Assembly: GCA_002256115.1 (NCBI GenBank)
Contig: NKIK01000005.1
Coordinates: 62,001-126,000, forward strand
Source: Burkholderiales bacterium PBB3
Lineage (GTDB): Bacteria; Pseudomonadota; Gammaproteobacteria; Burkholderiales; Burkholderiaceae_C
Direction: 5' to 3'
Length of the DNA stretch: 64,000 nucleotides
Each line of letters starts with the position of its first letter. Within the stretch, counting starts at the first letter, position 1. The notes under the pieces are model-generated. The model was not told the DNA's origin. It saw nothing but the letters and a program-made list of their open reading frames with translations, and did not search any database. Shown here piece by piece: positions 41,616 to 44,792 of the stretch. The translations under genes were made by a program, and so were the position numbers.

Positions 41616-42209
41616 TTAGCGCCGGTCTACCAAGGCATGGGCAATGGTGCCCAAGTCCACATACTCCAGCTCACTACCCGCCGGCACACCACGCGCCAGC
41701 CGGGTGGGTTTGACGCCACGCTCGCGCAGCGCTTCGCCAATCACATGCGCAGTGGCCTCCCCTTCAGCGGTGAAGTTGGTGGCCAAAATCACCTCTTTGA
41801 CCACTCCGTCGCAGGCGCGCTCAAACAGGGTTTTTAGGCCCAGATCGTTCGGGCCAATGCCGTCCAAAGGGCTCAACTTGCCCATCAGCACAAAGTACAG
41901 CCCGCGGTACGCGCCGGTGCGCTCCAAGGCCGATTGGTCGGCCGGTGTTTCCACCACACACAGCGTGCTCTGGTCGCGCCGTGGGTCCAGGCAGGTGGCA
42001 CAGACATTGGATTCGGTAAAGGTATTACAGCGCTCGCAATGGTGCGTGAGCGTGGAAGCCTCATGCAGCGCCCGCGCCAGCACCTGCGCCCCCGCGCGGT
42101 CATGCTGCAGCAAATGAAACGCCATGCGCTGCGCCGACTTGATGCCCACGCCCGGCAGGCGCTTGAGCGACTGGATCAGGGTGTCAAGGGAGTTGGTATC
42201 GGACATCAA
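41616..42209 (-). CDS. recR: recombination protein RecR
   Basis: RecR works with RecF/RecO loading RecA at gaps. The 197 residues have the N-terminal helix-hairpin-helix ([17 protein letters not shown]), a four-cysteine zinc finger ([16 protein letters not shown]) and a Toprim domain ([17 protein letters not shown]). It is the last of dnaX-ybaB-recR, a common cluster; a repeat lies between ybaB and recR. Confidence 0.95.
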
Positions 42210-42371: not shown

Positions 42372-42704
42372 TCAGAAAGGCAGCTTCATCCCACCAGGCA
42401 GCCCCGGCATACCCGCAGTGATCTTGCCCATCTTCTCCGAGCTGGTTTCCTCAGCCTTACGCACCGCGGCGTTAAAAGCTGCAGCCACCAAGTCTTCCAG
42501 CATGTCCTTGTCATCCGCCAGCAAGCTCGGATCAATCACCACGCGCTTCACGTCGTGCTTGCAGGTCATGGTGACCTTCACCAAACCCGCGCCAGACTCG
42601 CCAGTCACTTCGATATTGCCCAACTCGTCCTGGGCCTTCTTCATGTTGTCCTGCATCGCCTGGGCTTGCTTCATCAGGCCAGCGAGTTGTCCTTTGTTGA
42701 ACAT
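42372..42704 (-). CDS. YbaB/EbfC family nucleoid-associated protein
   Basis: A 110-residue DNA-binding protein of the YbaB/EbfC family. Characteristic segments are [33 protein letters not shown] and [20 protein letters not shown]. The ATG with AAGGAAA is preferred over an upstream start. It sits between dnaX and recR. Confidence 0.95.
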
Positions 42705-42776
42705 GGTATTTCCTTCTAAAAGAGACGGGGGATTAAACAAAGCCTGGACGGGGGATCACAGGCCTTGCGGTAAAAC

Positions 42777-44792
42777 TTAGAGTGGCTTGATCGAACCTGG
42801 AACGATTTTCGCGCCAAAGTCCCGCATCATGGACTGCACGAAGGGATCATCAAAAATAATCTTTTCGGCAGCCAACTGCTTTTCAGCCGACGCCGCGCCA
42901 TTGCGCCGACCCGGGCTATCGGTCACCCGGCCAATTTCAACCACCAGTTTGACCGGAAAACCGGCGGCGTGCAGCGCGGTGGTCAGCCGGTCGCGCGTGC
43001 CGGGCTGGTTCAGCGATTCACGCTCGACCCGCAGAATCCACTGGTCGGTGTCGCGCGCCACCAATTGCGATTGCAAGGCCAACTCGCGCACCATGGCATT
43101 GATGGCTTCGGCCTGGATCAGGCTCTGCACCGTGGCGTGCCAGAAGTCGCCTTCTTCGGTGGGAATCAGCACCTGGGCCGCTTGTCCAGCCACCACATCC
43201 GAGCGAGATTCCACTTGGGTTCGCATCGGCACTGCTACAACTTTAGTAGCTGCTCCCGCACTATCCACGGCCTGAGCGGCCATTTTTGCCAAATTTTTAT
43301 CGCCGGGCTCCAGATGCGGCGCTGACTCGTGCACTGGCAGCACATGGCCTGGCGGCAGTGCCTTCGGCTGTAGCTGCTGGTTCAGAGGTTGCAGTTCTGC
43401 AGAGAAAGATGGCGGAGCATCTTCCCAAGGCTGCACAGCGCGGGGCTTCGCGTTTTGGGCTTGCGGGGCAGTGTGTACGGAAACAGGACTGGCGGAAGAC
43501 ACTGATGCGAGTGCTGCCGCTGCTACCGTTGTTGCCGTGGCCGCAGGAGCCTTAGAAGCCGCCTCGGACACCGTTGGCCGGGGTGCCGTAGTCACCACTG
43601 GCTTCGGCAGCACAGCCGCCGGTGCAGTAGCCTGGGCACTATTCAGAGTTTTTTTTTCCACGGTGGCCGCTGGGCCGCTGGGTTTGAAGGCCAAGAGCCG
43701 CAGCAGCACCATGGTCAGCGCGGCGTATTCATCTGGGGCCAGACCCAAGTCCGCCCGGCCATGCAGGCAAATGCTGTACAGCAACTGGGTTTCGTCCATG
43801 GGCAATAACTCTGCCAGGCGCGCGGTCTCGGTCGCCTCGGGGTCGGTGTCGTCGTCTTGGGCGACAGGGGCACCGCTGCGCGCCAGGGTTTGCACCACGG
43901 CCATGCGCTGTAGCACGGTGGACATTTCTTCCAACGTAGAAGCCGCGCTCAAGCCATTCAGGCGCAGCGCCTCAGAGGTTTCCACCACCGTTTTGCCATC
44001 GCCCTGCGCCAGCGCCTCAATCAGGCGAAACACATAAGAGCGGTCGACGCTGCCCAGCATCTGGCGCACGGTGGCTTCTTGCAACTGGCCGGAGCCAAAG
44101 GCAATGGCCTGGTCCGTCAAACTCAGTGCGTCGCGCATGGAGCCACGTGCGGCGCGGGCCAGCAAACGCAGGGCCTGCACTTCAGCAGGCACATTTTCCT
44201 GGCCCAGCACAAAAGTTAAATGCTCACGAATTGTTTCAGGCGCCATGGGCCGCAGATTGAACTGCAGGCAGCGGCTCAGCACCGTCACCGGCACCTTTTG
44301 CGGGTCGGTCGTGGCCAACACAAATTTCAAGTACTCCGGCGGTTCCTCCAGCGTCTTCAGCATGGCGTTAAACGCCGTGTTGGTGAGCATATGCACCTCG
44401 TCGATCATGAAGACCTTGAAGCGCCCTTGCACCGGCTTGTAAACCGCTTGCTCCAGCAGGGCCTGCACCTCGTCCACGCCACGATTACTGGCGGCGTCCA
44501 GCTCGGTGTAATCCACGAAGCGGCCACTATCAATATCCGTGCAAGCCTGGCACACGCCACACGGCGTAGCCGTGATGCCACCATTGCCATCCACCCCTTG
44601 GCAGTTCAGCGACTTGGCCAATATGCGTGACACGGTCGTCTTACCTACGCCCCGGGTACCGGTGAACAGGTAGGCGTGGTGCAGGCGCTGGGTGGTCAGC
44701 GCATTGCTCAGGGCTTGCACCACATGGTCCTGCCCCACCATTTCAGAGAAATTGCGAGAGCGATACTTGCGGGCGAGCACGAGATAAGACAT
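42777..44792 (-). CDS. dnaX: DNA polymerase III tau/gamma subunit
   Basis: Clamp-loader ATPase and replisome organiser. The 671-residue protein has Walker A GTRGVGKTT (about residue 45), a four-cysteine zinc module (CGVCQAC and nearby), SRC sensor in VLSRCLQFNLR, and domain III ending LLRLLAFKP. Then a Pro/Ala-rich linker and the tau C-terminal domain. Codons 379-382 contain a run of nine A (GAA AAA AAA ACT) just after domain III; slipping by one in either direction meets a stop within a few codons, suggesting a gamma form of about 382-384 residues. The linker also carries a family A repeat (VDSAGAATKVVA). Confidence 0.96.
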   Translation of the reverse strand: MSYLVLARKYRSRNFSEMVGQDHVVQALSNALTTQRLHHAYLFTGTRGVGKTTVSRILAKSLNCQGVDGNGGITATPCGVCQACTDIDSGRFVDYTELDAASNRGVDEVQALLEQAVYKPVQGRFKVFMIDEVHMLTNTAFNAMLKTLEEPPEYLKFVLATTDPQKVPVTVLSRCLQFNLRPMAPETIREHLTFVLGQENVPAEVQALRLLARAARGSMRDALSLTDQAIAFGSGQLQEATVRQMLGSVDRSYVFRLIEALAQGDGKTVVETSEALRLNGLSAASTLEEMSTVLQRMAVVQTLARSGAPVAQDDDTDPEATETARLAELLPMDETQLLYSICLHGRADLGLAPDEYAALTMVLLRLLAFKPSGPAATVEKKTLNSAQATAPAAVLPKPVVTTAPRPTVSEAASKAPAATATTVAAAALASVSSASPVSVHTAPQAQNAKPRAVQPWEDAPPSFSAELQPLNQQLQPKALPPGHVLPVHESAPHLEPGDKNLAKMAAQAVDSAGAATKVVAVPMRTQVESRSDVVAGQAAQVLIPTEEGDFWHATVQSLIQAEAINAMVRELALQSQLVARDTDQWILRVERESLNQPGTRDRLTTALHAAGFPVKLVVEIGRVTDSPGRRNGAASAEKQLAAEKIIFDDPFVQSMMRDFGAKIVPGSIKPL
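43234..43290 (+). repeat. dispersed repeat family A, copy inside dnaX
   Basis: Core agctgctcccgcactatcc at 43248-43266, preceded by gctac-aacttta-gtagc, a perfect 5-base stem. It is antisense to dnaX, which reads DSAGAATKVVA from it, in the tau linker. Confidence 0.85.
43649..43657 (-). other. nine-adenine slippery run in dnaX
   Basis: On the dnaX strand the run reads G-AAAAAAAAA-CTCTGAATAG. In frame: GAA AAA AAA ACT. One extra A or a -1 shift gives AAC TCT GAA TAG (stop). One fewer A or a +1 shift gives CTC TGA (stop). It lies about ten residues past domain III. Confidence 0.8.

Follow-up and report, generated by a model that had tools for sequence, protein, structure and literature searches.

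The dnaX gene of the window (the whole stretch of DNA analysed here, 64,000 nucleotides) carries a run of nine adenines (A9) that is probably a programmed transcriptional slippage (realignment) site for making gamma, the short product of this gene. RNA polymerase would copy the nine-A run at variable length, such that transcripts with 9 or 9+3n As would be translated into full-length tau, while those with 8, 10, or 11 As would meet a stop within a few codons and give gamma, a predicted product of 382–384 aa that consists of domains I–III without the alpha-binding C-terminus. We infer from the sequence that slippage takes place in this organism and that gamma accumulates, and the gamma:tau ratio and the use made of gamma are read in the same way.

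The gene is located on the minus strand (42777..44792) and, in the zero frame, encodes the DNA polymerase III subunit tau of 671 aa. Its identity is given by the open reading frame together with NCBIfam matches (TIGR02397 dnaX_nterm, E 2.8e-120; NF005942, 649.6 bits with the cut-off at 613) and Pfam matches, the latter placing the ATPase at residues 20–183 (PF13177), the lid at 188–235 (PF22608), and domain III at 238–368 (PF12169). Codons 1–368 (43689..44792, minus strand), which hold these three domains, would be retained in the predicted gamma, and the alpha-interacting domain V of tau (codons 544–667; 42792..43163, minus strand; PF12170, E 9.8e-9) would be missing from it. The neighbours downstream of dnaX, also on the minus strand, are a ybaB/ebfC family gene (42372..42740; PF02575, E 1.2e-34) and recR (41616..42209; RecR_HhH, Toprim, and RecR_C domains). 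The proposed slippage site, delimited from the sequence and the family alignment, is at 43649..43657 on the minus strand, where it reads as nine T on the plus strand, and it occupies codons 379–382 (GAA AAA AAA ACT) in the linker, 11 codons past domain III. The first-pass annotation had put the A9 in dnaX at 43649–43657 and in these same codons, about ten residues past domain III, and the limits of the ORF and the end of PF12169 at residue 368 bear this out. Its account of the shifted readings, i.e., AAC TCT GAA TAG with ten As and CTC TGA with eight, is likewise reproduced from the sequence. The TGA stop in the +1 frame (43643..43645, minus strand) ends 6 nt after the run and would be reached with one A missing or two added, and the TAG stop in the −1 frame (43639..43641, minus strand) ends at 10 nt and would be reached with one added A or through a −1 ribosomal shift. 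The predicted gamma products are thus 382 aa with one A fewer and 384 aa with an extra A, in agreement with the approximately 382–384 residues claimed earlier.

Relatives were collected by a whole-protein scan of contigs representing one genome per species, of which the best 80 loci were used; by title, these belong mostly to Rhodoferax and other Comamonadaceae (Polaromonas, Ramlibacter, Acidovorax, Variovorax, Curvibacter, Caenimonas, and Xenophilus). Before any counts were made, two copies of the window's gene (L001 and L083), a paralog (L002), and two loci with no usable dnaX (L276 and L277) were dropped, and three genomes that matched weakly (G207, G239, and G241) were left out of the family sample of 60 genomes, while the sequences of L181, L284, and L290 reach the end of the retrieved locus. 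In L181, the dnaX linker passes into a hexanucleotide tandem repeat that continues up to that end, and in L267, from a one-contig genome (G254:C1:2319398-2320502), a frame change near residue 327 breaks the dnaX match in two.

The run was present at the same place in all 80 of the best-matching dnaX loci, as A9 in 79 and as A10 in one (L009). For the window's family, the comparison covered 140 distinct dnaX genes; the run occurs in 117 of them, as A9 in 116 and as A10 in one, and is missing from 23. The rows are kin to one another, such that these conservation counts and the stop counts given below are non-independent trials. Conservation in related genomes with the same domain layout, on which the first-pass annotation had staked its reading, therefore holds throughout the close relatives (80/80), and it is incomplete in the family at large (117/140), where the 23 genes without the run are 63–77% identical to the window's gene over domains I–III. 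In the tree, 21 of these 23 genes fall on outlying branches, and two (L243 and L256) are placed within the run-bearing clade. An in-frame A_AAA_AAG after codon 340 was found in none of the run-less family genes besides L243, the remaining 22 having neither the A9 nor the A_AAA_AAG signal, and no A-run was found in codons 355–420 of L256. Phase variation at the DNA level was considered and rejected, as nine As are found in 116 of the 117 run-bearing genes and an in-frame A10 in the other one.

The case for a non-chance A9 rests on this conservation and not on the count in a single genome. Within the window alone, runs of A8 or longer are unremarkable, with 4 overlapping matches against 2.57 expected and at least 4 in 27 of 100 shuffles. 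A pattern search of the window's genome (4.76 Mb in 118 contigs, 94.9% complete) gave 14 A9 runs on both strands together, a density at which a 2,016-nt gene would be expected to carry ~0.003 on its sense strand. According to a rough stop-to-stop frame check, six of these 14 runs fall within codons 1–26 of a frame of >200 codons, four are without any frame of >156 codons, and four, including that of dnaX, are deeper inside a longer frame. A second A9 within a long frame of this genome was seen in a 463-aa ORF (L239 733-2124; GGT AAA AAA AAA CCG), for which a Pfam search returned no match. Across 289 dnaX genes, the runs of A7 or longer comprise 11 A7, 8 A8, 140 A9, and 3 A10; the 143 A9 and A10 runs are past codon 340, and codons 1–340 contain zero runs of A8 or longer.

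Codon choice at the run points to selection on the nucleotides themselves. In the alignment of the 117 run-bearing genes, whose mean amino-acid identity is 0.72 with a minimum of 0.58 (600 sampled pairs), the run starts in a single column in 117 of 117. Lys fills 90% or more of the rows in eleven columns, and AAA makes up 100% of the codons in both run columns (117/117) versus 5–44% in the nine controls; similarly, for 18 Glu columns, GAA accounts for 100% in the run column versus 7–79% in the 17 controls. In the Leu column right after the run, CTA is used at 20% (21/106), the next highest of 54 Leu columns reaching 6%. The Leu codons that precede a G after the run are seven in number and all CTA, which creates TAG in the +1 frame, and these seven cases are not independent because several of the genes have near-identical flanks. 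The nine As are unbroken while the codons at both edges vary, with GAA, CAA, or AAA (E, Q, or K) before the AAA pair of the run and ACT, ACA, ACG, ACC, AGT, or AGC (T or S) at its end. Peptide conservation as the sole cause of the run was rejected on these codon data. As a separate observation on the flank, the base at window position 43659, which closes the codon ahead of GAA, is T or G in 113 of the 117 family genes and C in 2, the matching base is T in 17 of 17 genes of a second dnaX family (f8, described below), and this rarity of C contrasts with GCC being the most frequent Ala codon of these genes.

Soon after the run, stops close off the two shifted frames. With linker positions of the same genes as the null, a +1-frame stop (the frame of A8 or A11) ends 6 nt past the run in 108 of 117 genes, compared with 4.2% in the null; it is made up of CTG-A in 84 genes, CTA-A in 14, CTA-G in 7, and GTA-A in 3, and in the other nine genes it is found at 9 nt (2), 12 nt (2), 18 nt (2), 33 nt (1), 42 nt (1), and at least 60 nt (1). 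In the −1 frame, entered with A10 or by a −1 shift, every one of the 117 genes has a stop within 37 nt (null 32.6%), 56 of them at the window's distance of 10 nt, and 115 genes have stops within 37 nt in both shifted frames (null 8.9%).

An E. coli-like gamma could also come from programmed −1 ribosomal frameshifting, with the shift on the in-frame A_AAA_AAA and termination at the −1-frame stop; this would account for part of the pattern, and we consider it unlikely as the explanation here. In the family's A9 genes, the heptamer at the run is indeed A_AAA_AAA, in frame, a −1-frame stop follows it soon in the window (TAG) and within 37 nt in 117/117 genes (against the null of 32.6%), E. coli dnaX uses such a shift and has its gamma annotated in RefSeq, and genus g137 of the same clade has A_AAA_AAG together with a Shine-Dalgarno-like string. 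Yet seven As would suffice for such a shift where nine are conserved, A_AAA_AAG is described as far more prone to shifting in E. coli than A_AAA_AAA (PMC5009743), and a −1 ribosomal shift alone fits less well because it would gain nothing from the +1-frame stop, whose position is the most uniform (108/117 at 6 nt). As for signals of ribosomal FRAMESHIFTING, upstream Shine-Dalgarno-like strings (at least 4) occur in 10 of the 117 genes versus ~21% of control positions, i.e., without enrichment, and no A_AAA_AAG was found in frame after domain III of the window's dnaX; one A9 gene, L176, also has A_AAA_AAG at codon 468. RNA stability is weakly up around the run, with a mean z of −0.30 to −0.46 in windows directly preceding it or within 30 nt downstream, and of −0.27 to 0.00 in windows 45–150 nt past it; over 116 genes, the best z near the run averages 0.36 below that of control windows (p 0.003). 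This slight excess favors a ribosomal shift, as does the fixed 42-nt window starting 3 nt past the run, where z is −1.0 to −1.2 for the window's gene (mean of the 117 genes −0.57) and about −1.7 for E. coli, but the 36-nt window with the same start speaks against it, with z of 0.0 for the window's gene and a 117-gene mean of −0.44 versus −2.3 for E. coli K-12 and −3.1 for L313, a g137 gene. The 42 nt downstream of the run fold at −16.5 kcal/mol in the window versus −19.1 kcal/mol in E. coli, 9–10% of the 117 genes have a downstream z of −2 or below, and no consistent strong stem-loop after the run was seen across the 117 genes. There may be modest or lineage-specific RNA structure near the run, possibly stimulatory, and translation may conceivably contribute to the shift.

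Poly(A) is slippery for both machines and both shifted frames are trapped, which would also suit a mixed recoding in which polymerase slippage and ribosome sliding or shifting both act on the run. Truncated product has been described with as few as three AAA lysines (PMC4363877), but A9 and A10 inserts yielded little of it in the same source, and we regard such a mixture as quite improbable. Ribosome sliding by itself was also set aside as unlikely, given published data in which it gives little product at A9 or A10 and becomes robust at A11 (PMC4363877). Very improbable in our view is an incidental run, i.e., a conserved EKKTL linker peptide with no frameshifting at all: EKKTL is encoded in 92 of 117 rows, but the end residues vary where the A9 is constant, the Lys, Glu, and Leu codons are strongly unlike those at other conserved columns, and g137, which lacks A9, carries another frameshift motif at this position. 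Transcriptional slippage thus fits better than −1 ribosomal frameshifting, as nine As are kept, both frames are trapped, and Shine-Dalgarno-like strings are not enriched. The first-pass annotation had read the site as a slippage-made gamma in Thermus style, and this reading gains inferential support from the run in 80/80 best-matching loci, the codon constraint, the near stops in two frames, and the lack of Shine-Dalgarno enrichment. For the polymerase of E. coli, slippage is described as undetectable below eight As, as much weaker on A- than on T-runs, and as favoring insertion over deletion, with a direction that is variable at nine or more (PMC6260861). Some points run counter to slippage: the stop of most uniform position belongs to the +1 frame, entered through deletion (A8) or a +2 change, whereas E. 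coli polymerase prefers insertion and slips less on A- than on T-runs (PMC6260861), the weakly raised RNA stability leaves room for a stimulatory structure, and 23 of the 140 family genes exist without the run.

A different signal is found in the same clade in genus g137. Near codon 380, L243 has no A9 and instead possesses AGAGGAG, 15 nt, A_AAA_AAG, CCTGA, and then a 12-bp stem-loop, which has a z of about −3.1 to −3.3 (36 nt) in L243/L313 (one gene). Five genomes of this genus were returned, with sizes of 2.1–2.6 Mb (L313, which is the L243 gene, L312, L314, L315, and L316), and all five have GGGAG or AGGAG, an identical 15-nt spacer, A_AAA_AAG, and [CT]CTGA at about codons 378–380, with the −1-frame TGA 5 nt past the heptamer in 5/5 and with a diverged surrounding linker. 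The strong stem-loop is confined to L243/L313, the other four genomes having z of −1.5 to +0.4, and with one of five genomes carrying it, we do not claim a complete E. coli-type cassette throughout g137. In trees of domains I–III, the A9 rows, g137, and L256 form one clade (support 99), as do the A9 rows and g137 when L256 is left out (98/99). The best tree places g137 among the A9 rows, while a tree with the A9 rows as their own clade was not rejected (p-AU 0.133), and for this reason, we do not claim that g137 derives from an A9 ancestor or that A9 gave way to A_AAA_AAG. The presence of A_AAA_AAG, GGAG, and a −1-frame TGA at the same place in a genus without A9 supports selection for gamma by either route. 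We are evenly divided over the broader reading of these sequences, in which one clade would make gamma at the same codon by two machines, with RNA polymerase slipping on A9 in almost every member and ribosomes shifting frame on A_AAA_AAG in the small-genome g137, such that the product and not the mechanism would be selected, gamma would matter clade-wide, and the A9 of the second family, at another point of the linker, would be an acquisition of its own.

That second family, f8 (L090, L094, L201, and 14 more loci), has A9 in 17 of 39 genes at codons 459–646, about 80–270 codons farther along the linker than in the window's family; homology between the two A9 runs was considered and is not claimed. 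The f8 run stands in the context CAA/GAA AAA AAA ACT/AGT GA; all 17 genes have a −1-frame TGA whose end is exactly 4 nt past the run, and 12 of the 17 have a +1 stop no more than 37 nt away. For the order sample, dnaX stretches were read from 93 of 199 matching genomes (own copy included), and the other order members (n = 83) have A9 or A10 past codon 340 in eight cases and A8 in four. One of the eight, L088 (f40), groups inside the window's family, was counted with these other members, and is probably a contaminant contig. At the class level, where 27 new loci were read of 274 matching genomes, A9 was seen in one (L300) and A8 in two (L295 and L304). Three of the other order members (L114, L128, and L150) have A8 or A9 in an ATA/GTA AAA AAA A context before a shared F-D-G stretch, in which TTTGA supplies a −1-frame stop, and this arrangement is possibly another kind of gamma site. 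In addition, three class-level loci (L292, L296, and L304) have an in-frame A_AAA_AAG at codons 398–402, with an upstream AGGAGG in two of them and, in L296, a downstream stem-loop with a z of −3.7.

A 2012 review describes most bacteria as keeping no dnaX frameshift signature and perhaps making no gamma (PMC3290774). In contrast, a large GC-rich group here retains a dnaX signature under strong nucleotide-level selection, and one clade has signs of two mechanisms for the same product, which together provide a tractable system for asking what role gamma plays and how recoding mechanisms come to replace each other. Literature on dnaX slippage or frameshifting in Comamonadaceae, Acidovorax, Burkholderia, and Bordetella gave nothing on the A9 site by title, within a scope that left most subscription journals outside and in which a prior mention is possible. 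The main text of PMC3711429 names none of the four Comamonadaceae genera checked and mentions Burkholderia once, for another gene, and none of the six genera checked is named in the available text of PMC5009743.

Transcriptional slippage in dnaX is already known from Thermus (PMC1088944, PMC5009743), including the programmed slippage of Thermus thermophilus dnaX reported by Larsen et al. 2000, as described in PMC1088944. Like that gene, the window's dnaX has nine As on the sense strand, near stops in the shifted frames, and a predicted short product without the tau end; unlike it, the window's gene comes from a different phylum, and slippage, measured in Thermus, is predicted here. With E. coli dnaX (control locus L310), it shares the same gene and the same kind of product, a gamma without the tau C-terminus, whereas E. 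coli has AGGGAG, A_AAA_AAG, a stem-loop, and the −1 frame, and the window's family has A9, two trapped frames, and no Shine-Dalgarno enrichment. The two-ORF dnaX genes described by Antonov et al. 2013 (PMC3711429) are similar in having an A-run in dnaX that was credited to transcriptional realignment, but there the shift is needed for tau, whereas in the window's dnaX tau is read in the zero frame and gamma would be the shifted product.
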